Source: a bacterium | GTDB taxonomy: Bacteria; Hinthialibacterota; Hinthialibacteria; OLB16 | DNA: 32,714 bases | NCBI GenBank assembly: GCA_022072055.1 | Contig: JAJVIK010000032.1 | Span: 1-32,714 of the forward strand | Reading direction: 5' to 3' | Shown: piece after piece, positions 1,276 to 12,089 of the stretch | How positions within the stretch are numbered: the stretch's first letter is position 1 | How the letters are laid out: each line of letters opens with the position of its first letter | Notes under the pieces: model-generated | What the model was told of the DNA's origin: nothing | What the model saw: the letters and a program-made list of their open reading frames with translations, nothing else | The model's database searches: none | Translations under genes and position numbers: made by a program

Positions 1276-4101
1276 ATGCGCGTGCGAATGGTGTGTCTTG
1301 CGGTGGGGTTCCTGGCTGGGAGCCTTTTGAATCATCAAGCGGCTTTGGCCCAAGAGAGCGGAGGGCCGGCAGCGGCCACGGCGGAGGCGGTGGCGCGGGC
1401 CGAAGCGGTCGGCGCGGCAACCGGGGCGGCGGAGATCAAGCCGATTCTCACCCCGACCCCGACCGAAACCTCCACATCCACCTTCACCCCGACCCCGACA
1501 TTTACGGTCACCGACACCTTCACCCCGACAGAGACCTTCACCTCGACTCCATCCTTCACTCCGACCTCCACCTTCACCCCCACGCCGACCTTTAGCCCGA
1601 CCGCGACTTTCACGCCCACCCCGTTGGGCGCCGTCCACTTCCTGGATCGTTTGATCGACTTGGACCGTCTCGCGCTGCTCGATGAGGGCGTTTCCTGCAA
1701 ACAGTTCTCGAGTTATGACCGCAAGTCGCGCTATGACGCCGAAAAGAACGAGTACACCGATTGGGACGCCAATGGGGATGCCGGGAAATACCTCCGGGTC
1801 GAACCGGAAAGCGGCGAGGCGGTGATGGCCGAAATCGAGGGGCCGGGCTGCATCTGGCGCATCTGGTCCGCCAACCCCCAGGGCAAGGTTCGATTCTACT
1901 TCGATGGCGCGCAAACCCCCTCCTGCGAGTTCGAGTTCAACGACCTCTTTGACGCCAACAAGTCCCCCTTCCCAAGGCCGTTGGTCTGGCAACGTCGCGT
2001 GGACCTCGGCGGAGATAACCCCGCCTCGAACTGCTACATGCCGATTCCCTTCGCCAAGAGCTGCAAGGTCACCGCCGACAAAGCCCACAACCAGTACTAT
2101 CACATCGGCTACTCGACCTTCCCCCCGGAGACCCGTGTCACCACCTTCCACCTGGAGCGCTCCCAGGATGAGGAGGGCGCCCTTGCGCGAGTCACCAACG
2201 CCCTGCTGACCCCCGGCGCGGATCCCCAGCCGGTGGAGGGTCTCCAGTTCATCGAGAAGGCCGAGAACCTTCCCGCCGGAGAGTCGCTGACCCTGGCCGA
2301 AATCCAAGGCCCCGCGACCATTCGTCAACTGTTCGCCAAGCTCGCCTCGCCGGAGCGCTATGCCCGCCGGAAGGTCCTCCTCCAAATCTTCTGGGATGGG
2401 GCGGAGAAACCCTCCGTGGAGGCCCCCATCGGCGACTTCTTCGGGGACGCCTGGGACGAGGCCCAGTATGCGAGCCTGGCAATGGGCATCGGTCCCGACC
2501 TGAACTATTGCTTCTGGCGGATGCCCTTCCAGAAATCGGCCCGGATTGTGGCGACCAACCAGGGCGAACACGCCGCCGAGTTGAAGTGGAAGATCGGCTA
2601 TTTGAGCGGCCCGCTCCCGGAAGGCTCCGCCTATTTCCACGCCAAATGGCGGCGCGACCAAGCCAGCCGGGACTTTGACTACCCGGTCCTCGAATGCACG
2701 GGCAAGGGGCGCTACTTGGGGATGGTCCTGTTCCCCGACAACCTCGCGGGCGGCTGGTGGGGTGAGGGGGATGAGAAGGTCTATGTCGATGGAGAAAAAT
2801 TCCCCTCCACCTTCGGCACCGGCTCGGAGGATTACTTTGGGGATGCCTGGGGCATCCGCGCCTTCGCCAATCCCTATCATGGCTGTGTGACCGGCGCGGA
2901 TTGGAGCGCCGCGCGCCGTCAGTCGGTGTATCGCTGGCATGTGACCGACAACATCCCGTTCACACAGTCGTTCCGGATCACGATGGAGAACTACTCGGCC
3001 AAGAGCGACGCCGCGCGCAAGAACGACTACAGCTCGATGGCCTACTGGTATCAGGCGCCGGGCGGGGCCGATTGCTTCGAGACCACCGAGGTTGCCGCGC
3101 GGATTCCGCAAGGGCCGATTGTGCCGGATGCCGTCGACGCCGAGGCTGTGCTCGCGCGCGAGGAGCTCCCGGCTGGAGTGGAGATTGTCTCCGACTCGCT
3201 CCTGCCCAAGGAGGCCATGAACCACACCGCGGTGCGGATCGAGGGGGCCCCCGGGACCACAATCACTCTCAAGGTTCCGGTTCAGGAATATGACAAATAC
3301 ACCCTCGCCCCGATTGTCCTCGACAGCCGGAACAACGCCCGGCTTGTGTTCCATCAGGCCGGGAAAGCCATCGGGGAGTGGGTCCGACTTTCGCCCGGCG
3401 AGAACCGGATTCAGGCAACGCTGGAATCGGATGGCAAGGTGAACGCGCCGCTGGTCTTGGTTCTGGATGGCGTTGTCGTGCAGTCTTACCGCAATCTGGT
3501 CACCGACTGGATCGTGGCGGCCCCCTTCGCGGGCGGAATCGAGGACCAACAGGGACCCGAGGGGGCCGAGGCGCTGCTTGGCGCCACCTTCGAGGGGCGC
3601 GACGGTCCGGTGACTTGGCGTCGGATCAAGGCCGAGGATGGAGTGGTGCGGATGGAGTCCCTGTGCGGCCCGGGAGAAGGAGTCTTGTACTCCTCCTGCG
3701 CGGTGTTCTCGCCGGATGACCGGAGCGCCGTGGCGCTGTTTGCCTCAAATGTTCCCGCCAAGGTTTGGATCAATGGGGAGCCGGTTCACCATGTGGAAAA
3801 GCCGCGCGGGATGAAGCTCGACTCGGATCGCTTTGAGGTGAGGCTCCGGCGCGGTTGGAACCAGGTGATGGTGAAGGTGGCTCAAGCCAAGGGCGCGGGT
3901 TCCTTCGCGTTTCGGATCAAGGACCCGGATGAGGAGTTGTTCTTCCGCGCGCATCGCCCGGGCGCACGAGCCGAGATGGTGGAGGCCCCCGCTTCAAACG
4001 GGCCAGGGGCGAGTTCATGCGACTGCAACCTGGTCGAAGTGATCCAGTCCACGGTGGAGACCGTACTGGGTTGCCTCTGCCCGGGGCCGTGCTGCCCGTA
4101 G
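1276..4101 (+). CDS. Secreted DUF2961 / GH172-like glycosidase family protein with Thr-Pro linker
   Basis: A 941-residue exported protein. Residues 1-25 form a signal peptide ending in ALAQ. Residues ~59-116 are a low-complexity Thr/Pro/Phe linker. The DUF2961 body follows: two related beta-sandwich motifs, one near residue 207 (YFDGAQTPSCEFEFNDLF) and one near 371 (FWDGAEKPSVEAPIGDFFG), and the family hallmark GTGSEDYF at 514-521, whose Glu518 is a candidate catalytic residue. DUF2961 founded glycoside hydrolase family GH172, whose studied members act on difructose anhydrides and arabinans and use a double jelly-roll fold. Residues ~752-888 form a further beta-sandwich of the kind appended to planctomycete carbohydrate enzymes (VWINGEPVHH, RRGWNQVMVKV). 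The last 29 residues hold six cysteines. The ATG is preceded by a G-rich ribosome site. The substrate cannot be read from sequence. Confidence 0.85.
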   Translation: MRVRMVCLAVGFLAGSLLNHQAALAQESGGPAAATAEAVARAEAVGAATGAAEIKPILTPTPTETSTSTFTPTPTFTVTDTFTPTETFTSTPSFTPTSTFTPTPTFSPTATFTPTPLGAVHFLDRLIDLDRLALLDEGVSCKQFSSYDRKSRYDAEKNEYTDWDANGDAGKYLRVEPESGEAVMAEIEGPGCIWRIWSANPQGKVRFYFDGAQTPSCEFEFNDLFDANKSPFPRPLVWQRRVDLGGDNPASNCYMPIPFAKSCKVTADKAHNQYYHIGYSTFPPETRVTTFHLERSQDEEGALARVTNALLTPGADPQPVEGLQFIEKAENLPAGESLTLAEIQGPATIRQLFAKLASPERYARRKVLLQIFWDGAEKPSVEAPIGDFFGDAWDEAQYASLAMGIGPDLNYCFWRMPFQKSARIVATNQGEHAAELKWKIGYLSGPLPEGSAYFHAKWRRDQASRDFDYPVLECTGKGRYLGMVLFPDNLAGGWWGEGDEKVYVDGEKFPSTFGTGSEDYFGDAWGIRAFANPYHGCVTGADWSAARRQSVYRWHVTDNIPFTQSFRITMENYSAKSDAARKNDYSSMAYWYQAPGGADCFETTEVAARIPQGPIVPDAVDAEAVLAREELPAGVEIVSDSLLPKEAMNHTAVRIEGAPGTTITLKVPVQEYDKYTLAPIVLDSRNNARLVFHQAGKAIGEWVRLSPGENRIQATLESDGKVNAPLVLVLDGVVVQSYRNLVTDWIVAAPFAGGIEDQQGPEGAEALLGATFEGRDGPVTWRRIKAEDGVVRMESLCGPGEGVLYSSCAVFSPDDRSAVALFASNVPAKVWINGEPVHHVEKPRGMKLDSDRFEVRLRRGWNQVMVKVAQAKGAGSFAFRIKDPDEELFFRAHRPGARAEMVEAPASNGPGASSCDCNLVEVIQSTVETVLGCLCPGPCCP
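1450..1623 (+). repeat. Low-complexity Thr-Pro linker coding tract
   Basis: About 58 codons of ACC/CCG-type triplets code for repeated T-P-T-x-T-F units between the signal peptide and the catalytic region of the DUF2961 protein. Such linkers separate modules of extracellular enzymes and are often glycosylated. The tract also creates long spurious open frames in other phases. Confidence 0.8.
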
Positions 4102-4206: not shown

Positions 4207-4635
4207 TCATGAACGGCTCTTGGGGGCTTGAACCTCGCGAATGCCATGCGCCTTCCAGGTTCCATCCCCGGCGCGAGCCGCGGTTGCCGTGTAGCGCCGC
4301 TCGGCCTTGACCTTTCCCTCCGCCAGCGCCTCTCCGGAGAAGCGAATCACATACTCGTTTGTGCCTGAACCCGGCTCGACCTCGGCCCGGCATACTCCGG
4401 TGGGGAGCTCCGCGCTGAGATTCCCCGTGCCTTGTCCAGACTCAAGGTGCGCAAGCGCCAGTTCAAGCCCCCCATCCGCGAGCGCCTCCGCGGAGCGGGT
4501 CCGGATCGCTTGAACCGCGAGGCGCCGGTTGGCGTCCAGCAGATGAAACATCGCGGGACCCAAGAGCGCGATCAGGGTCATCAACAACAGGCATTGGATC
4601 AGGGTCAATCCACCTTCCGAACGGCGCGCGGTCAT
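4207..4635 (-). CDS. Minor pseudopilin, GspK/PilX-like
   Basis: A 142-residue protein with an N-terminal prepilin-type segment: a short basic leader (MTARRSEGG) followed by a hydrophobic helix (LTLIQCLLLMTLIALLG). The likely cleavage is after Gly9, and position +5 is Gln instead of the usual Glu. Lack of Glu+5 is known for the tip pseudopilin GspK, but this protein is about half the usual GspK length. The remainder is a small polar domain. I chose the ATG at 4635 because it overlaps the stop of the preceding pseudopilin gene as ATGA and sits just before the helix; a longer frame upstream would be antisense-like filler. It is the last gene of the secretion operon. The assignment to K versus another minor pilin is uncertain. 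Confidence 0.65.
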   Translation of the reverse strand: MTARRSEGGLTLIQCLLLMTLIALLGPAMFHLLDANRRLAVQAIRTRSAEALADGGLELALAHLESGQGTGNLSAELPTGVCRAEVEPGSGTNEYVIRFSGEALAEGKVKAERRYTATAARAGDGTWKAHGIREVQAPKSRS

Positions 4636-5111
4636 GGTCCGGCCTCCAGATTCGAGCAAAACACGACGCGGGTCTTGCGCGGGGTTTCGACCTTGGTGAG
4701 ACGCAGGTGGCTGGTCACCTCTGTCGAGAGCGTGAGGTAACGCGCCCCATTCCCGACCTTGAAGGTGCACGAGAGGTTCTCGAAATGGAATTCGAGCGGC
4801 GCGCCGGCGGTCTGGAGAACGCGGACCACCTCTCGGGGCCCGGATCGGTACTCAATGGATTCGTCTCCAACCGAGATTCGCAGCCTTCCGGAGGCATCCT
4901 CGGTGATTGATTCCGCGCGGCGGATGTCGCGCGCGAGGTGACCGAGCAGCTCGCGCCGCTCCTGAGCGGTCTTGACCGTGTCCGCGAGCAGGGAGTGATA
5001 GCGGAAGGGCAGCAGGTACACGCTGATCAGCGGCGCGGCGAGGATCAGCATGATGGCGGTCACGATCAGCAGCTCGATCATGGTGAACCCGGCGGCTCGT
5101 GAGCGGCTCAT
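4632..5111 (-). CDS. Minor pseudopilin, GspJ/PilW-like
   Basis: A 159-residue prepilin with the classic leader-cleavage motif AAG^FTMIELL: cleavage after Gly8, Phe9 as the new N-terminus and Glu13 at +5. The hydrophobic helix runs to about residue 30. The body is polar and beta-rich, and ends with a predicted pairing of Cys residues. The ATG at 5111 overlaps the stop codon of the preceding gene as ATGA, and its own stop overlaps the next start in the same manner, so the three minor pseudopilins are probably translated in a coupled way and made in matching amounts. After processing by a prepilin peptidase (not in the window) it would join the pseudopilus in the periplasm. Confidence 0.72.
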   Translation of the reverse strand: MSRSRAAGFTMIELLIVTAIMLILAAPLISVYLLPFRYHSLLADTVKTAQERRELLGHLARDIRRAESITEDASGRLRISVGDESIEYRSGPREVVRVLQTAGAPLEFHFENLSCTFKVGNGARYLTLSTEVTSHLRLTKVETPRKTRVVFCSNLEAGP

Positions 5112-5515
5112 GGTCCGGCCTCCACCACGCGGAGGAGTGTGCAAAGCGAAAGGGACCGTTTCCCGGTGACCGACTTCCAGGTGAGGGTTGCCTGGACTTC
5201 CAAGAGGCCATGAACCCCTTTGGGAAGGACTGTGAGCGAGCGCTCGGCCTCGGGTAGGACATTCCCCTCCGGGAGCGGAGTGAAGTCTTCCGTTTTCGGC
5301 TGTTCATCAAGACGGATGCCGCGCGCCTTGAGTTCCGCGAGATCGGAGGCAAGGATCGAGCTCGCCACCTCCAGGTCGCGCGCCACCGAGGTGGAGCGCA
5401 CCGCGTGTCTCAGGACCGCCGCCTCGCCCGCGAGCATGATCAGCACAATGGCGATCACGATCAGCAGCTCGATCAAGGTGAAAGCGCGGGAAGTGGTCCT
5501 AAGATCCTCCTTCAC
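5108..5515 (-). CDS. Minor pseudopilin, GspI/PilV-like
   Basis: A 135-residue prepilin beginning VKEDLRTTSRA^FTLIELLIVIAI. The helix and Glu+5 (residue 16) are canonical, but the residue before the cleavage site is Ala instead of Gly. The start is a GTG at 5515 that overlaps the stop of the upstream membrane-protein gene (GTGA); no in-frame ATG exists close to the helix. An AAGGAGG sequence lies just inside the gene, where no suitable in-frame start follows it. Its place between the membrane protein and the J-like pseudopilin fits the I-J-K order of type II secretion operons. The class assignment rests on order and size and is moderately sure. Confidence 0.68.
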   Translation of the reverse strand: MKEDLRTTSRAFTLIELLIVIAIVLIMLAGEAAVLRHAVRSTSVARDLEVASSILASDLAELKARGIRLDEQPKTEDFTPLPEGNVLPEAERSLTVLPKGVHGLLEVQATLTWKSVTGKRSLSLCTLLRVVEAGP

Positions 5516-6084
5516 AGCACCCACCTCCTGGGACGTAGGAACCGGCGGAGCGAGATGTTGCTGGGGAAGGACAGAAAACAGAGGCTCATCAACCCGACCA
5601 GCATCGGCGTGGAGGCCGGACTGAGAAAGGCGCCGAGCCCGTAAAGCGTGAGGAAGGTGGTCGCGAGCCAGATGGGGACTGAGCCGAGGATGAAAACCGC
5701 GCAACCTGCCAGGATGCAAGAGAGAAGTTCGAACTCGTCATGCTTCCACCAATTCCCCCACACGAGGAAGACCAAGGCCCCCCAGCAAACCAAGCGTGGG
5801 AAAGTCGAGAACACACTGACTAAAGCCTTGGCCGCGATCGCGACCAGCAATGGGGATAGGATCAGGAGCCCGATGGCCGTTCCGCCGAACAGGATTTCCC
5901 AGACCAGTCGGAATGATCCGCCGGGAGGTGGGCTCTGTGAGCTAAACCAATAGATGATTGCCACCTCCAGCCCGATCAGGAGTCCGAGCGAACCGATCAG
6001 CAAGTCCCGCTTGAACGAGATCGAGCGCGGGGTTTCCCGCTTCTCCTCGACCTCCTCCATGACCTCCATCGGCTCCTCAGGCAT
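5512..6084 (-). CDS. Uncharacterised multi-pass membrane protein of the secretion operon
   Basis: I do not recognise this 190-residue protein. It starts with an acidic cytoplasmic segment (MPEEPMEVMEEVEEKRET), followed by about five or six hydrophobic segments: residues ~27-48, 62-90, 97-112, 120-157 and 160-175, ending in a basic tail (RRFLRPRRWVL). Its start overlaps the end of the GspE-like gene by 8 nt, and its stop overlaps the next pseudopilin start. It is therefore locked into the operon, at the place where an inner-membrane platform component might be expected. It shows no GspC, GspL, GspM or GspN-like layout (those are single-pass). No prepilin peptidase cysteine or GxGD motif is seen. 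An accessory platform or assembly role is only an inference. Confidence 0.75.
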   Translation of the reverse strand: MPEEPMEVMEEVEEKRETPRSISFKRDLLIGSLGLLIGLEVAIIYWFSSQSPPPGGSFRLVWEILFGGTAIGLLILSPLLVAIAAKALVSVFSTFPRLVCWGALVFLVWGNWWKHDEFELLSCILAGCAVFILGSVPIWLATTFLTLYGLGAFLSPASTPMLVGLMSLCFLSFPSNISLRRFLRPRRWVL

Positions 6085-7258
6085 CGCCGTTCTCCAATCG
6101 CGGCAGCACGCGGAAGATTTCCTCCGGCGAGGTCACCCCCTCGGCGAGCAACCGCGCGGCGGATTGCGCCAGCGAAACCGAAAGGCTCCCGCTTCCCACT
6201 CGCCGCAGGGTGCGCAGGTCGGCGCGCGACAGGATCGCCTCGCGCAGGTCATCCCCCACGGTCAGGCTCTCCCCGAGCGCGGTGCGCCCGAAATACCCGG
6301 AGTGCCCGCACTCCCGGCAGGCGGAGGGACCATGAAGGGAGGCTGAAGCCTCGACTCCAAGCTTGGCGCGGATCGCCTCCGGAACCTGGATCTCGGCCTT
6401 GCAGGTACCGCACAGCTTCCGCACAAGCCTTTGCGAAACCACGCCCACCACCGCCGAGGCGGCCAAATAGGCCTCCACTCCCATCTCCAACAGTCGCGGA
6501 AAGGCCTCGCAGGTGTCGCGGCTGTGAATCGTGCTGATCACCAGGTGCCCGGTCATCCCCGCGCGGACCGCGATCTGCGCGGTCTCCGGGTCGCGGATCT
6601 CGCCCACAACAATCACCTCGGGGTCCTGGCGCAGGAGGCTCTTGAAGGCATCCGCGAAGGTCATGTTGCGGCAACGCGAGAGCGGAGTCTGCGCGGCGAA
6701 GCCGAGGTCGCGCTCCACCGGGTCCTCCAGCGTGGCGATGTTGGTCTCGCCTCGGCTCTCACGGTGCAGTTCCTCCAGCAGGGCGTAGATTGTGGTGGTC
6801 TTCCCGCTCCCGCTCGGACCGGTGAAGAGCAGCACCCCCTGACGCGCCCGCGCCGCCGCGCGCAGATCCGCGAGGACCTTCTCGCCCAGCCCCAGCTGTT
6901 CGAGCGAAAGCGCGCACTCATCCCGCCGGAATATTCGCACCACCGCCTTCTCGCCATGAATGGTCGGGAGGATCGACAGCCGGGCTTGGATCGGGACCTC
7001 GCCGTTCTGAATCTCCACATGCCCCTCGAAGGCCATGTCGCGCTCATACACCGGCAACCCCGCGAGCACCTTGAGGCGCGCGACCACGCGCGGCAGGTTC
7101 TCCAGGGAAAAGACCTCATGCGGTCCGAGCAGTCCATCCACGCGCAGCATCACATGGCAGCCATCCCCATGCGGCTCGAAATGCACATCGCTCGCGCGGC
7201 GCTTGAGCGCCTCAGCGAAAACCTGATCCAGATACGTGTCGGCCTCAAAACGGGACAT
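6077..7258 (-). CDS. gspE: GspE/PilB-type secretion ATPase
   Basis: A 393-residue hexameric-type ATPase that powers pseudopilus or pilus assembly from the cytoplasmic face of the inner membrane. It starts almost at the N2 domain (RRASDVHFEP, 20-29). The Walker A motif is GPSGSGKT (147-154), the Asp box LEDPVE is near 177-182, Walker B is VIVVGEIRD (215-223) and the His box GHLVISTIHSRD is at 237-248. A tetracysteine zinc site typical of GspE/PilB is present (C283/C286 and C314/C317). The N1 domain that normally binds GspL or PilM-type partners is missing, making the protein 100-170 residues shorter than standard. The ATG has a GAGGAG ribosome site. GspE versus PilB cannot be decided by sequence alone. 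Confidence 0.93.
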   Translation of the reverse strand: MSRFEADTYLDQVFAEALKRRASDVHFEPHGDGCHVMLRVDGLLGPHEVFSLENLPRVVARLKVLAGLPVYERDMAFEGHVEIQNGEVPIQARLSILPTIHGEKAVVRIFRRDECALSLEQLGLGEKVLADLRAAARARQGVLLFTGPSGSGKTTTIYALLEELHRESRGETNIATLEDPVERDLGFAAQTPLSRCRNMTFADAFKSLLRQDPEVIVVGEIRDPETAQIAVRAGMTGHLVISTIHSRDTCEAFPRLLEMGVEAYLAASAVVGVVSQRLVRKLCGTCKAEIQVPEAIRAKLGVEASASLHGPSACRECGHSGYFGRTALGESLTVGDDLREAILSRADLRTLRRVGSGSLSVSLAQSAARLLAEGVTSPEEIFRVLPRLENGDA

Positions 7259-7267
7259 GTCCGCTCC

Positions 7268-8305
7268 TCAAAGACCGATCGCGCTCACAAGATTGAAGAC
7301 CGGGGTGTACAAGGCGGTGGCCAGGATCACCATCAGTCCCCCAACCACCAGGATGAGCAGCGGCTCCAGGATCTCCACGGTCCACAGCACGGTGTTTTCC
7401 ACCCGCGCCGCGTAGAAATCCGCCAGATGATCGAGCGTGGCGAGGAAATCCCCCTTCACCTCGGCGGCGGAGAGCATCCAGATCATGGTCGGCGGGAAAA
7501 GGGTTTCGGTGATCATCGAGGTGGAGAGGGTCTCGCCACGCTCCACGCTCCTCCGGACAGTCTCCACGCTGGCCTGGGCGCGTTTGTTGTTGAGCATCCC
7601 GCCGCACAGGCTGATCGCCTCCGGCAGCGGCACCCCGGCGCGAAGGAGGGTCCCCAAGGTCCGGGTGAGACGCGAGGCGAGGGCCTGGCGGGTGAAGTTT
7701 CCGAGAAACGGGCACTCCAGGTCAAACCAATCGAAAATCAGCCCGCTCCACCCTACCCGCGCAAACCGTCGCGCGAACCAAAACACCACCGCGATGATCA
7801 GGAGCGTCACCGAGAAGGCGGTGTAATGAAAGCGAATGAGGAACAGGAACGAAGTGGGGAGTTCCGCCCCCAACTCCTCATAGATGTTGGCGATCTGGGG
7901 CATGATGTAGGTCCCATAGAAGAACATGAACGCGCTCAGGAAAAACACCAGCGCGACCGGGTAGGCGAAGACCTTGCGCACCTTGCGCCCGACGACATAG
8001 TTCTTCTGGATCAGCTCCGCGAGCTGCTGGAGCGAGTCGGGCAGCGCGCCCCCTTCCTCACCCGCGCGCAGCACGCGGATGAAGTAATCCGGGAACACCT
8101 TGGGGTGCCTCGCGACCGCGTCCGCGAGATTGGACCCGGCGCGCAGCTCCCCCGCGATATCCACCAAGGTGGCGCGAAAACTCCTCCCCACCATCTCCCC
8201 CGCGAGCAGCTCCACGGTCTGATGCAGCGGCACCCCGGCCCTCACCGCCGAGGCGATGTGTTCGGTGAAGAGCACCAGATCATCAATAAAGACCCGTTGA
8301 AACAT
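7268..8305 (-). CDS. gspF: GspF/PilC-type inner-membrane platform protein
   Basis: A 345-residue polytopic protein with two copies of the T2SS F domain: FTEHIASAVRAGVPLHQTVELL near residues 13-34, and LTRTLGTLLRAGVPLPEAISLC near 220-241. Hydrophobic segments occur at ~110-133, ~160-178 and ~312-332, giving the usual three-helix pattern. It forms the membrane platform on which the GspE ATPase acts to push pseudopilin subunits. The length is slightly under the 400 usual for the family, mainly at the N-terminus. It lies 9 nt upstream of the ATPase gene and 12 nt after the major pseudopilin, so all three are clearly co-transcribed. An AAAGGA ribosome site precedes the ATG. Confidence 0.92.
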   Translation of the reverse strand: MFQRVFIDDLVLFTEHIASAVRAGVPLHQTVELLAGEMVGRSFRATLVDIAGELRAGSNLADAVARHPKVFPDYFIRVLRAGEEGGALPDSLQQLAELIQKNYVVGRKVRKVFAYPVALVFFLSAFMFFYGTYIMPQIANIYEELGAELPTSFLFLIRFHYTAFSVTLLIIAVVFWFARRFARVGWSGLIFDWFDLECPFLGNFTRQALASRLTRTLGTLLRAGVPLPEAISLCGGMLNNKRAQASVETVRRSVERGETLSTSMITETLFPPTMIWMLSAAEVKGDFLATLDHLADFYAARVENTVLWTVEILEPLLILVVGGLMVILATALYTPVFNLVSAIGL

Positions 8306-8317
8306 GGCGTGTCCTTT

Positions 8318-8923
8318 CTAAGGTCCGAGCAGAATCAAGTCCCCATCCGAGCGTGTGCCGTTTGTCGGGCTGTAGCCCACCCCTTCCGGAGGCATCTTTG
8401 CGGCGTACACATCCCCATCCTCGTCGGGAGCATAGCTCGCGAGGAGATACGCGGCGGACCCGATGGCGCCGAACCGCGCGCGCGGGATCGGGGCGCCGGT
8501 GATCTCCAGCGCGTTCACATAGTCGAACAGGTGTCGTCCATGATCCTCCGTGGGGAAGGGATCGCCGGGGAGGAGGGAGAGGATCGCCAGAGGAGTGGTC
8601 AGGATCGAAAGGGAACCTCCGCGCAGGCCATGGTTCGAGCGGTCTTTTCGATCCTCGCGGTTGGGGTCTCCGACAAGCCCCCCCTCCGGGGTCTTGGCGA
8701 CCCGATTGGGAGGATAGGCCCGGTAGGAGAGGTAATACTCCTCGATCGCGGCGGAGATCGTGGCCATGTCGGAAATCGCCGCGGTCACTCGCGCGCGAAT
8801 CTGCGCCTCGAGGAAATTCGGCAGGGCGATCGCCATCAAGATGCTGATGATGAGTCCGACCGTGGCAAGCTCCATCATGGTGAAGCCGCGGGGGGGGGGA
8901 AGGGGAGTTGGGGGGGAGGTCAT
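8318..8923 (-). CDS. Major pseudopilin / type II secretion GspG-like prepilin
   Basis: A 201-residue prepilin with cleavage site PRG^FTMMELATV (Gly13/Phe14, Glu18 at +5), a hydrophobic helix to about residue 35, then a helical and beta domain with the YYLSYRAYPPN segment and DPF...YVNAL features of GspG-like and DUF1559-neighbouring pilins. The C-terminus carries an Asp-rich loop (DEDGDVYAAK and RSDGDLILLG) that may bind calcium as in GspG. It heads the operon. An AGGAG ribosome site lies 6 nt before the ATG. The leader is unusually Pro-rich and is coded by C homopolymers of 7 and 10 nt, which could make the reading frame unstable. The prepilin call is sure; being the major subunit is inferred from position. 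Confidence 0.85.
   Translation of the reverse strand: MTSPPTPLPPPRGFTMMELATVGLIISILMAIALPNFLEAQIRARVTAAISDMATISAAIEEYYLSYRAYPPNRVAKTPEGGLVGDPNREDRKDRSNHGLRGGSLSILTTPLAILSLLPGDPFPTEDHGRHLFDYVNALEITGAPIPRARFGAIGSAAYLLASYAPDEDGDVYAAKMPPEGVGYSPTNGTRSDGDLILLGP
8890..8916 (-). repeat. C10 and C7 homopolymer tracts in the pseudopilin leader
   Basis: On the coding (minus) strand there are ten consecutive C (8890-8899) and seven consecutive C (8910-8916), both inside the first 12 codons of the pseudopilin gene and upstream of the cleavage site. Homopolymers of this length are classical sites of slipped-strand mispairing. In the given sequence the frame is intact. Confidence 0.8.
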
Positions 8924-8942
8924 GGCGCGCTCCTGTTGATGG

Positions 8943-9024
8943 GCGCCGGGATCAGGCCCGGCGGCGGTTGAGACATCGCCGGGCTTACGGCCGGCGCTGC
9001 GACTGTGTCGCCCACTCCGTGGGC
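8943..9024. repeat. Cluster of palindromes upstream of the pseudopilin operon
   Basis: An outer inverted pair gcgccgg (8943-8949) / ccggcgc (8991-8997) encloses smaller imperfect hairpins. Two more perfect hairpins follow: gcgac-tgt-gtcgc (8999-9011) and gcccac-tcc-gtgggc (9010-9024), which overlap by two bases. The cluster fills nearly all of the 123-bp gap between the anti-sigma gene and the pseudopilin gene. The sequence differs from the element at 4124-4190, but the architecture is alike. It may be a dispersed repeat, or a transcript processing or attenuation site between the two gene groups. Confidence 0.55.
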
Positions 9025-9046
9025 TTGGAGAATCCGCGAGTCCGCC

Positions 9047-9538
9047 CTAAGACACCGGGCGACTTGTCCGGAATCCCACGCTCTGCACCCGCGCGGAGAG
9101 CTGCGCGGTCTGCCAGGCCAGCTCCACGATGAGCGGATCGTTCAACTCCTTGGCCACCAGCTGCAGCTCCACGACCGCGGGTGGCGGATTCGGCGCGGTT
9201 GCCTTTGGAAGCGATGGCACTCGCAGTGTGGGGGCAAGCAGTCCCAGCACCAGACAAGCCGCCATTGCCGCTCGCAACCAGGGGCGAGACTCATCCGCTC
9301 GCCTTCGCTGGAGAATCGCCAGTACCGTGGCGGCGAATTGCTCGGAAATCCGCTCCTCCGGCTCAACAGTCGCGCGGTCCACCAGCTCGAGGGTCTCCCG
9401 CAAACGCGCATGCCGCTCACGGCATTCGGCGCAGTCCGCGAGATGCCTCTCCACGCGGTGGGTCCAAACCTCCTCCAGGTCCCGGTACACATGATCCAGA
9501 AGCAGCAAGGTCACGGTCCGGCAGTCTTCCCGAATCAT
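9047..9538 (-). CDS. Zinc-finger anti-sigma factor
   Basis: A 163-residue protein with the ZAS motif H32-x3-C36-x2-C39 (RHLADCAECRE), which typifies the N-terminal anti-sigma domain that clamps ECF sigma factors. A hydrophobic segment near residues 88-104 would anchor it in the inner membrane, leaving a C-terminal part of ~55 residues in the periplasm as the possible sensor. Its ATG overlaps the stop of the sigma gene as ATGA, the usual arrangement that keeps sigma and anti-sigma in balance. The signal and the release mechanism cannot be read from sequence. Confidence 0.85.
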   Translation of the reverse strand: MIREDCRTVTLLLLDHVYRDLEEVWTHRVERHLADCAECRERHARLRETLELVDRATVEPEERISEQFAATVLAILQRRRADESRPWLRAAMAACLVLGLLAPTLRVPSLPKATAPNPPPAVVELQLVAKELNDPLIVELAWQTAQLSARVQSVGFRTSRPVS

Positions 9539-10122
9539 CTCCGCGCCCTTTCGTCGACCTCGCCGGAACCGATAAGCGAGCCTTGAAGCTTCTGAAGCGC
9601 GTTGTGGAGCGTGGCCTTGACCGTGCCGAGGGGCGAATTCAACACCTCGGCAATTTCCGTGAGCTTTAGTCCCTGGAAGTGGCGCAGCACGAACACAAGC
9701 TTCTGCCGTGGCGGAAGCTCCTCGATCGCGCGCTCGATCCGCTCCACCTCGCGCGAACGCCGCAACAGTTCGCGCGGGCTTGCCGGCGAGGAGACCCGCG
9801 CCAAGTGGAGGACCTCGCTCCCGTATGATTCGAGTCCCTCACGCTGCCGCTCGCGACGCCGGAGGATGTCCAGGGCTTGGTTTGAGAGGATTCGATAGAC
9901 CCAGAGTTGGAAGGCGCGCACATCCGAGAGCTCGCGGAGGCGGTCCCACACGCGCAGGAAGGTTTCTTGCAGGCAATCCTCGGCATCCTCGCGTTGATGG
10001 AGGATGCGGTACGCGGTATAGAACATGCGCTCCTCGTAACGCTTCACCAAGGCCCCGTAGGCGCGTAGGTCACCTTGTTGGGCTCGGCGGATCAGCTCCA
10101 GTTCCAGCTCCGGATTCTCCAC
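9535..10122 (-). CDS. ECF RNA polymerase sigma factor (sigma-70 family)
   Basis: A protein of about 195 residues with region 2 (ALVKRYEERMFYTAYRIL, then EDAEDCLQETFLRVW, the core-binding and -10 recognition part) and region 4 (ELPPRQKLVFVLRHFQGL, then EIAEVLNSPLGTVKATLHNA, the helix-turn-helix for -35 boxes). I chose GTG at 10122 because it gives the usual short N-terminus (ENPELELELIRRAQQGD) and follows an AAGGAG site; an ATG at 10188 and a TTG at 10203 in the same frame would add 22-27 residues. It is coupled to the anti-sigma gene. Downstream on the same strand lies the pseudopilin operon, a possible target or part of the same transcript. I could not identify its cognate promoters in the window. 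Confidence 0.92.
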   Translation of the reverse strand: MENPELELELIRRAQQGDLRAYGALVKRYEERMFYTAYRILHQREDAEDCLQETFLRVWDRLRELSDVRAFQLWVYRILSNQALDILRRRERQREGLESYGSEVLHLARVSSPASPRELLRRSREVERIERAIEELPPRQKLVFVLRHFQGLKLTEIAEVLNSPLGTVKATLHNALQKLQGSLIGSGEVDERARR

Positions 10123-10244
10123 TCCGGTGCATCTCCTTGAAGATTCACTTGTTAAGACGCTCAGCGACCTCCAATGGTTTAGTCTCATTTGAGGTTCCTG
10201 CAAAGATAGAGTTTAAGTTGTGTTGGAAGGGTCACGGCTTTGTG

Positions 10245-10281: not shown

Positions 10282-10403
10282 CGTCGGCGATGAGGGGCGC
10301 CCCTTTCTGGGTTTCGGGCGACCGGCGCGATGGTTGCGCGGAGCACTTGTGTCCCGGGCCTCTCCTTGACTTGAAGCCACACAACAACAGGGGTGTTCAG
10401 CTT

Positions 10404-11159
10404 ATGTTTCTCGCTCGAGCCGAGGGTGGTGGCGTGGATGTTTCCATGGTTTACCTGCCGGGGATCGAAGGCTCCGGCGCTCTCGCATCCAAGTTCCTGC
10501 TCAAGGCCGAAGGTCATTTCCCCATCACCCGTCTGCACTATCCCGGCCACAGCCGTCTGACCATCGAGGAACTTGCGGATGGGTGTGTGTCGGCGCTCGC
10601 CGAACAGGGCAAGACCAGCGCGATCTGGCTCGGTGATTCCTTCGGATCCGCGGTGGCCCTGGCCATCGCCCTCAAGCACCCGCGCGCCACTCGCGGGCTG
10701 ATTCTCGCGGGCGGCATGACCAAGGCCCCCAGCCCGGTCCGCTTGCTGGCCGCCGCCCGAATCCTGGACACACTGCCCTCCAGCTGGCGCAAGAAGGCGT
10801 TGAGGCGAAGGTTGCAGCGAGTCGTTCGGAGGCACCCCACCCGCTTCCACCGTTCCGTGGTGGATGAGTTCCTGATCAACGGTCAGCTCGATTTCCTTTC
10901 CTGGCGGCTCCGCCTCCTTTCCGCCTTCAATGTTCGCTCCGAACTCCACAAGCTCGACTGCCCGGTCCTCTATCTCGGGGGTGAGGAGGATGGGCTGGTC
11001 AACACGCAGGAGGAATCACGTCTCCTGCGGGCCACCTTGCCTTCCTGCCGGACTTTCCTGTTTCCCGGGTGCGGCCACGCGGTTCTGGGGGAGCGCGCGG
11101 TCGAGTGCCTGGAGGTGATCGACCTGTTCATCCCCATGGCCAAACGGGTCGCGGCGTAG
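10404..11159 (+). CDS. Alpha/beta-hydrolase fold protein
   Basis: A 251-residue cytoplasmic hydrolase with the full catalytic triad visible: nucleophile Ser79 in GDSFGS, Asp196 in GGEEDGLV and His225 in GCGHAVLG. The oxyanion region LPGIEGSG is near the N-terminus, and a basic helical cap (SSWRKKALRRRLQRVVRR) lies between strands 6 and 7. This is the layout of esterases, lipases and thioesterases related to BioH/MenH; the substrate is unknown. The frame is open far upstream, but that part is antisense to the sigma gene. ATG 10404 follows an AGGGG stretch; ATG 10446 (MVYLPGIEG) is a good alternative and would fit the family better. It has its own promoter and is followed by a weak terminator. 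Confidence 0.85.
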   Translation: MFLARAEGGGVDVSMVYLPGIEGSGALASKFLLKAEGHFPITRLHYPGHSRLTIEELADGCVSALAEQGKTSAIWLGDSFGSAVALAIALKHPRATRGLILAGGMTKAPSPVRLLAAARILDTLPSSWRKKALRRRLQRVVRRHPTRFHRSVVDEFLINGQLDFLSWRLRLLSAFNVRSELHKLDCPVLYLGGEEDGLVNTQEESRLLRATLPSCRTFLFPGCGHAVLGERAVECLEVIDLFIPMAKRVAA

Positions 11160-11225
11160 GGAATCCCCCCCACTTTCCCTCTTTCCAACCCTTCAGATTC
11201 CCGCCCTATCCGCCGAAACTGAGAT

Positions 11226-11245
11226 GGGCGAATCCGCCCGTTTTT
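11226..11245 (+). terminator. Weak Rho-independent terminator
   Basis: A short stem gggcg (11226-11230) / cgccc (11235-11239) with loop aatc is followed by gttttt. The position, 67 nt after the hydrolase stop, fits transcription termination before the MCE operon. The stem has only 5 bp, so the site may be partial. Confidence 0.4.
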
Positions 11246-11273
11246 CTTGCTTGCAGAGGGCGGTGGGAAGTCG

Positions 11274-12089
11274 ATGTCCTCCAGTGTTTCACTTCCGGAC
11301 ATCCCGGGGCGGGAGCGGAGTCTGCTCGCGCCGCTGCGCTGGCTGGAGTCGGCCTGCCTCCATATCGGCGGGGTTTCCATCCTCTTCGCCTCCGCGCTTT
11401 CCCGGGTTTTTCAGCGACCCTTCCGGATGCGTCAGTGGATCGCCCAAATGGAGCAGGTCGGGGTCCATTCGATTTCGGTCGCGCTACTGACCGCCACCTT
11501 CACCGGCATGGTCATGGTCCTGCAAACCGGGGTGCAACTCAGCCGTTTCCAATCCGAGTCGATGACCCCCGGCATCGCCGGGATCGCCCTGTTGCGCGAG
11601 ATCGCCCCGGTGCTCACCGCGCTCGCCATCGCCGCGCGTGTCGGCGCGGGGATCGCCGCCGAGCTCGGCACGATGCGTGTCACCGAGCAGATCGACGCCC
11701 TGGAATCGATGGGCTCCGATCCGATCCATTATCTTGTGGTCCCGCGTTTGGTGGCCTGCGTGGTGATGGTCCCCGCCCTCACCATCCTTTCGGACTTAGT
11801 GGGAATCCTGGGCGGGTGCCTGATCGGGGTCACCAAGCTCGACATCACCCTCCAGGCCTATCTGGACACGACTTTTCGTTGGGTGAACCCGGAGGATTTC
11901 TATAGCGGCTTCCTCAAGACAATTGTGTTCGGAGGGATCGTGGCCACCATCGGCTGCTACCTGGGGCTCAAGTCCTCCGGGGGCGCCGAGGGCGTGGGGA
12001 CCGCCACCACCCGCTCGGTGGTGGTTTCGTTCATTCTGATCCTGGTCTCGGATTATTTCCTCACCGAGATCCTCCTCAAGGTCCTCTAA
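11274..12089 (+). CDS. mlaE: MlaE-type permease of an MCE lipid ABC transporter
   Basis: A 271-residue inner-membrane protein of the MlaE/YrbE family. It has the family pattern of an N-terminal amphipathic helix (FRMRQWIAQMEQVG), then FTGMVMVLQTGVQL, the highly conserved core AARVGAGIAAELGTMRVTEQIDALE, and PRLVACVVMVPALT, followed by three more hydrophobic helices. MlaE dimers carry phospholipid between the MCE ring and the ATPase. ATG 11274 follows a GGTGGGAAG site; a TTG at 11247 is possible but less likely. It is 1 nt from the ATPase gene, as usual for the E-F-D order reordered here as E, F, D. Confidence 0.93.
   Translation: MSSSVSLPDIPGRERSLLAPLRWLESACLHIGGVSILFASALSRVFQRPFRMRQWIAQMEQVGVHSISVALLTATFTGMVMVLQTGVQLSRFQSESMTPGIAGIALLREIAPVLTALAIAARVGAGIAAELGTMRVTEQIDALESMGSDPIHYLVVPRLVACVVMVPALTILSDLVGILGGCLIGVTKLDITLQAYLDTTFRWVNPEDFYSGFLKTIVFGGIVATIGCYLGLKSSGGAEGVGTATTRSVVVSFILILVSDYFLTEILLKVL

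Follow-up and report, generated by a model that had tools for sequence, protein, structure and literature searches.

The window analysed here is a stretch of 32,714 nucleotides, the minus strand of which carries a predicted operon in the order ECF sigma factor, anti-sigma factor, prepilin, GspF, GspE and then further prepilins. The ECF sigma factor (9535–10122, with a start at 10203 also allowed) was matched by PF08281, PF04542 and TIGR02937 (116.9 bits), and the anti-sigma factor (9047–9538) was assigned from an HxxxCxxC motif recognized by eye and a match to NF052375 of 28.5 bits, below the cut-off of 100. The prepilin under study (8318–8923, 201 aa) gave no Pfam match and is GspG-like by its match to TIGR01710, with an E-value of 5e-10 and a score of 39.5 bits that does not reach the curated GspG cut-off of 88.85. 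It is followed by a GspF/PilC-like inner membrane protein (7268–8305; PF00482, E 7e-48; TIGR02120, 227.7 bits, below the cut-off of 424) and by a short form (393 aa) of a GspE/PilB-like ATPase (6077–7258; PF00437, E 2e-96), for which the TIGR02533 match of 365.3 bits, below the cut-off of 630.25, spans profile positions 114–485 of 486. An operon with GspE and GspF is thus present, with Pfam matches above and NCBIfam equivalogs below their cut-offs. The run of genes continues with a membrane protein recognized by eye (5512–6069), two minor prepilins (5108–5515 and 4632–5111, each matched by PF07963 and TIGR02532) and a last gene (4207–4635) which may encode a minor component; neither the membrane protein nor the last gene had a family match in Pfam and NCBIfam searches.

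Family matches and synteny indicate that the operon would be a minimal type II secretion/type IV pilus-like one linked to an ECF sigma factor, with the gene at 8318–8923 supplying its first prepilin. This gene resembles GspG of type II secretion in its class III leader with G-1, F+1 and E+5 and in its operon with GspF and GspE, but differs in scoring below the curated cut-off, in the ECF/anti-sigma pair in front and in the short GspE. The first-pass annotation had called the product the major pseudopilin, a name which is reasonable but which the sub-threshold GspG score leaves unproven. Related prepilins are abundant in the genome, with at least 53 matches counted when 52 of 99 candidates were scored. 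Two families of the class have an ECF sigma/anti-sigma pair ahead of this operon of prepilin, GspF and GspE (window 9047–10203, and 10325–11589 of locus L119), and its retention in front of the operon suggests that the secretion/pilus-like machine may be under ECF control. Between the anti-sigma gene and the prepilin lies a short GC-rich palindromic element (8974–9029), of which at least 8 similar copies were found elsewhere in the genome when 40 of 101 candidates were scored. The 5' leader RNA of the prepilin gave a folding z of -0.87, which is not notable for a structured RNA.

The 5' end of the prepilin gene reads ATG ACC TCC CCC CCA ACT CCC CTT CCC CCC CCC CGC GGC TTC ACC on the minus strand, with a Shine-Dalgarno motif AGGAG (8930–8934, minus strand) located 6 nt 5' of the ATG. 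Translation gives an N-terminus of MTSPPTPLPPPRG followed by FTMMEL (FTMMELATV when read further), in which the class III signal peptide features G-1, F+1 and E+5 are present. The leader peptide is accordingly taken as the 13 codons at 8885–8923, with predicted cleavage after G13, following the class III rule described in the accessible text of PMC4471445. On the plus strand the region reads G10 (8890–8899), AA, GGGG, AGTT and G7 (8910–8916). The two C runs reported earlier within the first 12 codons were confirmed: in the sense direction the C10 tract occupies codons 9–12 (8890–8899, minus strand) and the C7 tract codons 3–5 (8910–8916, minus strand). It had also been remarked that the proline residues of the leader serve no known need, which is a fair comment; proline accounts for 9.1% of residues in 27 prepilin leaders of this genome versus 1.9% in 117 others. 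With respect to codon usage, CCC makes up 38% of Pro codons, and 3 of 134 PPP windows were all-CCC where 7.5 were expected.

The 27 distinct leaders from this genome were drawn from approximately 1.2 Mb plus short loci, and the 117 others include those found in all 80 GspE-relative loci described below. A PPP was found once among the 144, in this leader, and besides this gene the longest C-run was 5 in the 26 other leaders of the genome and 4 in the 117 from elsewhere. A pattern search over 14 genomes of the class, with this genome covered in full, for a C-run of at least 7, up to 10 nt and then G-F-T-x-x-E returned none but this gene. The idea that a C-run in the prepilin leader is a conserved family trait was consequently rejected, since both pattern and leader comparisons find it here alone. 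As far as the compared genomes show, the tract appears private to this gene.

No close relative or second strain was found on scanning genome contigs, in a collection which may omit very near records. Among the matches listed from the 14 class genomes, a clear GspE orthologue was present in G004 only (49% identity over residues 5–362, in an open frame of 411); the next ten GspE matches listed by score had at most 41% identity, in open frames of at least 563. A second orthologue scan took the best 80 of 546 GspE relatives, and neighborhoods were examined for 8 of the 80; the syntenic locus there (L211) carries the same prepilin as G004, and neither scan yielded a closer orthologue. In G004 (L119) the gene order is ECF, anti-sigma, prepilin, F, F, E and prepilins, and its prepilin, 41% identical to the one studied here, is the one syntenic orthologue found; its leader, MMRHKERSG, contains neither Pro nor a C-run. 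This absence of the tract from a single, distant orthologue would weaken a contingency reading without refuting it, and is weak evidence because tracts of the contingency kind are frequently restricted to particular lineages; the accessible text of PMC5953494, for example, describes phase-variable pilC as confined to the pathogenic Neisseria.

The effect of a change in tract length was predicted by translation. A C9 version yields a 15-residue peptide and a C12 version stops after 16 residues, and the C11 and C8 versions enter shifted frames of 213 and 212 codons respectively, the former a nonsense product; the earlier claim that a one-base slip abolishes the pseudopilin thus held at the level of translation. 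This is also the level at which a feature of contingency loci, an in-frame tract whose length change switches expression, was found here. Since the shifted C11/C8 frame crosses the pilin stop and terminates 23 nt into gspF, polarity may be asymmetric: loss of one base could lower translation of the downstream genes, and gain of one base might not. The polarity on the operon suggested earlier fits the one-base loss better than the gain, the frame of which runs into gspF.

Long G/C runs were then considered across the genome (5.86 Mb, 62% GC). The window holds 15 G/C 7-mers, fewer than the mean of 23.6 in shuffled sequences. In 1.10 Mb, runs of length 8, 9 and 10 were seen 40, 3 and 3 times against 108.5, 34.8 and 11.1 expected from a first-order Markov model. 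The whole genome contains 26 runs of exactly 9, 9 isolated runs of 10–11 and one four-run cluster on contig C7. The pilin tract is rare in the genome, yet shows no excess over base composition. When the 36 run sites of at least 9, with the C7 cluster taken as one site, were placed on gene models, 26 lay inside called genes. Two of these are a G10 in hisA (L091, PF00977; C2:237409) and a run of 11 in a penicillin-binding protein gene (L136, PF00912 and PF00905; C13:34807), both in frame and mid-gene. The mismatch repair protein MutS is present (967 bits, above the cut-off).

A gene-start zone, reaching from 40 nt before a gene to 60 nt into it, held 5 of the 36 sites of at least 9, where 2.5 were expected from a base rate of 7.0% (P 0.10), and 4 of the 10 sites with runs of at least 10 (P 0.0036, post hoc). 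Besides this prepilin, the genes concerned encode a glycosyltransferase, a protein with FG-GAP repeats and a DUF192 protein whose start, as judged by eye, is lipoprotein-like. Gene starts were taken from our own small gene caller, trained on the present genome or, for each relative, on its pooled stretches, and distances may be off accordingly. In 13 other genomes of the class, 4 of 50 examined runs of at least 10 fell in the zone, one of the four (L334) being a weakly called gene of 37 codons close to the end of its contig; the 7.0% base rate is that of the present genome. These 50 came from a total of 55, the 5 left out all lying at most 250 bases from a contig start, and two L337 rows duplicating L336 places were removed from the set. 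Taken together (4/10 at 10 or more, 5/36 at 9 or more, 4/50 in relatives), a genome-wide 5' concentration of long runs was not established. In the accessible text of a survey of 99 genomes (Orsi 2010, PMC2831843), poly-A/T tracts are biased to gene starts and poly-C/G tracts are not.

Several individual runs were recorded in the course of this survey. The run most like the pilin tract is a C10 in codons 4–7 of a group 1 glycosyltransferase (MNRPPPLIAHFVSGFPVLSETF; L092 1501–1510, G000:C3:340103). A G10 lies 8 nt before the ATG of the 719-aa FG-GAP repeat protein, at the expected ribosome site (L135 ~10108, G000:C16:140107), and a G9 run precedes a further prepilin gene (MRVSPINGRKGFTLIELL; L201, G000:C19:113228) by 99 nt. 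In a relative, a C11 in codons 5–8 of a 699-aa gene forms another poly-Pro start (MRNIAPPPAKTAFKITMILC; L309 5001, G007:C107:32415); this gene had no Pfam match. The cluster on C7 consists of runs of 11, 10, 11 and 38 (L095 1501–1589, G000:C7:211471–211559) towards the 5' end of a Gly-rich open frame of 569 aa, which has a signal-peptide-like start and no Pfam match; the cluster either slips extremely readily or is an artefact of the assembly.

One pair of loci differs in run length within the genome itself. Contigs C19 (run at 126081; L206 8213–10165) and C5 (run at 3187; L178 1308–3270) carry two 650-codon paralogues of secreted type, 62% identical, the C19 protein of which matches GSDH and had no match in the 13 other class genomes. 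Their 5' ends share a block that, with the G-run set aside, matches at all but 2 of 247 nt, and the whole BLAST alignment is 345/377 (92%). In the C19 copy, with G9, a GTG behind AGGAGG reads a start which is signal-peptide-like by eye, VKRNGSRTKQSLGRNPALVCLLVCMGGGAFG, into the 650-aa protein. In the C5 copy, with G10, the signal-peptide-like frame reaches a stop after 49 codons; the 650-codon frame begins at an ATG lying 10 nt further downstream, and its start is not hydrophobic. The pair apparently resembles an on/off pair, with assembly error as an alternative, and is a better candidate than the pilin tract for a test of switching. On/off length variation may accordingly occur in this genome, which does not imply it for the pilin tract.

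Three further readings were weighed for the pilin tract. Translation of PPP depends on EF-P, and the proline codons rather than the DNA run could be what matters, with PP/PPP near the start lowering or tuning pilin output in an EF-P-dependent manner. The solitary PPP among the prepilin leaders, and the presence of PPP in the first 20 residues of 8 of 885 called genes, would be in keeping with this, but the Pro codons are not conserved in the orthologue and we consider such a role very unlikely. The G-rich template strand might alternatively fold as a four-tetrad G-quadruplex (8890–8916, plus strand) affecting transcription or replication of the prepilin gene: as a pattern, G10-AA-G4-AGTT-G7 fits four runs of at least 4 G, and 4 such motifs occur in 1.10 Mb on both strands. 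The motif, however, follows automatically from the C-rich leader, of which it would be a by-product, it would be carried by the template strand rather than by the mRNA, and the orthologue leader has no such run, so that this effect is highly improbable. As the evidence base is the assembly alone, and as one run in the genome reads G38, the true pilin tract might differ by one base or be a mixture. Against this, C10 yields an intact 201-aa gene, and no frame change was seen across 102 decidable coding G/C runs of at least 7 (72 + 21 from the 1.10 Mb, and 9 of the 35 loci whose run is 9 or longer). The upper 95% bound on the frame-change rate is 2.9% overall and 28% for the 9 decidable runs of at least 9 alone, and the background of the test, from short G/C runs of 4–6, was 90 apparent frame changes among 5,865 decided runs. 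Long out-of-frame runs, which would point to genes in the off phase or to errors of assembly, were not found among the 102. With all of these in frame, slips are not widespread in the assembly; the pilin run, located at a gene start where the frame test is undecidable, falls outside this result, and we give a wrong length there only a slim chance.

The first-pass annotation had proposed possible phase variation. As a true contingency locus, the tract would switch the pseudopilin and its machine between on (C10) and off (C9, C11) at high frequency by slipped-strand mispairing, and selection would maintain it. No feature examined outright denies it a place in that class, of which length variation at the locus itself is the defining mark. 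The elements of the proposal which stood are the position of the tract in codons 9–12, where a one-base slip removes the protein, its length, which passes the G/C cut-off of 9 used in Neisseria phasome screens according to the accessible text of PMC5953494, and the membership of the pseudopilin gene in a surface apparatus. The G9/G10 pair (C19:126081, C5:3187), with its apparent on/off effect, and the post hoc excess of runs of at least 10 at gene starts also speak in its favor. However, the tract is known from one assembly and at one length, the lone syntenic orthologue has no tract, housekeeping genes elsewhere in the genome contain runs of equal length, those in relatives are not concentrated at 5' ends, and poly-C/G showed no gene-start bias in the survey cited above; on balance we think a selected switch unlikely. 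A wider form of the idea, a small phasome in this uncultivated, MutS-positive bacterium in which G/C tracts of 9–10 at gene starts switch surface or secreted products, including the whole ECF-linked machine, is more doubtful still. Its proposed members would be the pseudopilin C10, the glycosyltransferase C10, the DUF192 lipoprotein-like G10, the FG-GAP G10 and the secreted GSDH-like G9/G10 pair.

Two known systems offer partial likenesses. In pilC of gonococci and meningococci (PilY1-type) the tract lies in the signal peptide. As here, it is a G/C homopolymer in a pilus gene at which a slip abolishes the protein, and pilC is phase-variable by a genic G/C tract 9–20 long (accessible text of PMC5953494). 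The Neisseria gene differs in that many genomes document both its changes in length and its on/off states, whereas one assembly and one length are available here, and in that its product is a pilus-associated protein rather than a prepilin. The poly-G tracts of Campylobacter are likewise extended G/C runs within coding sequence, and some of them belong to surface genes; the sense base there is mostly G (poly-Gly) and not C (poly-Pro), as given in the accessible text of PMC539331. In contrast, the sense base is C in the present gene, and the mismatch repair protein MutS is present.

The pilin tract is probably an incidental, mutable and unselected homopolymer and not a switch. It lies in what would be the least constrained part of the prepilin, a cytoplasmic leader cut off before assembly. 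Three of its Pro codons are CCC, probably by chance, since this codon is often used for Pro here, and with the Arg codon CGC directly behind them they give C10. As long as the leader stays largely hydrophilic and has Gly as its last residue, its sequence should matter little, and selection may for that reason have left the run in place. Slippage, which by translation would cost the cell its pseudopilin, is then most likely a mutational burden. Within titles and abstracts, a literature search returned no report of the randomization of a whole secretion/pilus machine through a prepilin leader. If the pilin tract does switch, this bacterium would randomize its whole secretion/pilus machine in that way. 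If it does not, the case calls for caution, in that a leader C10 in a 62% GC genome mimics a contingency locus while equal runs occur in hisA and in a penicillin-binding protein gene.
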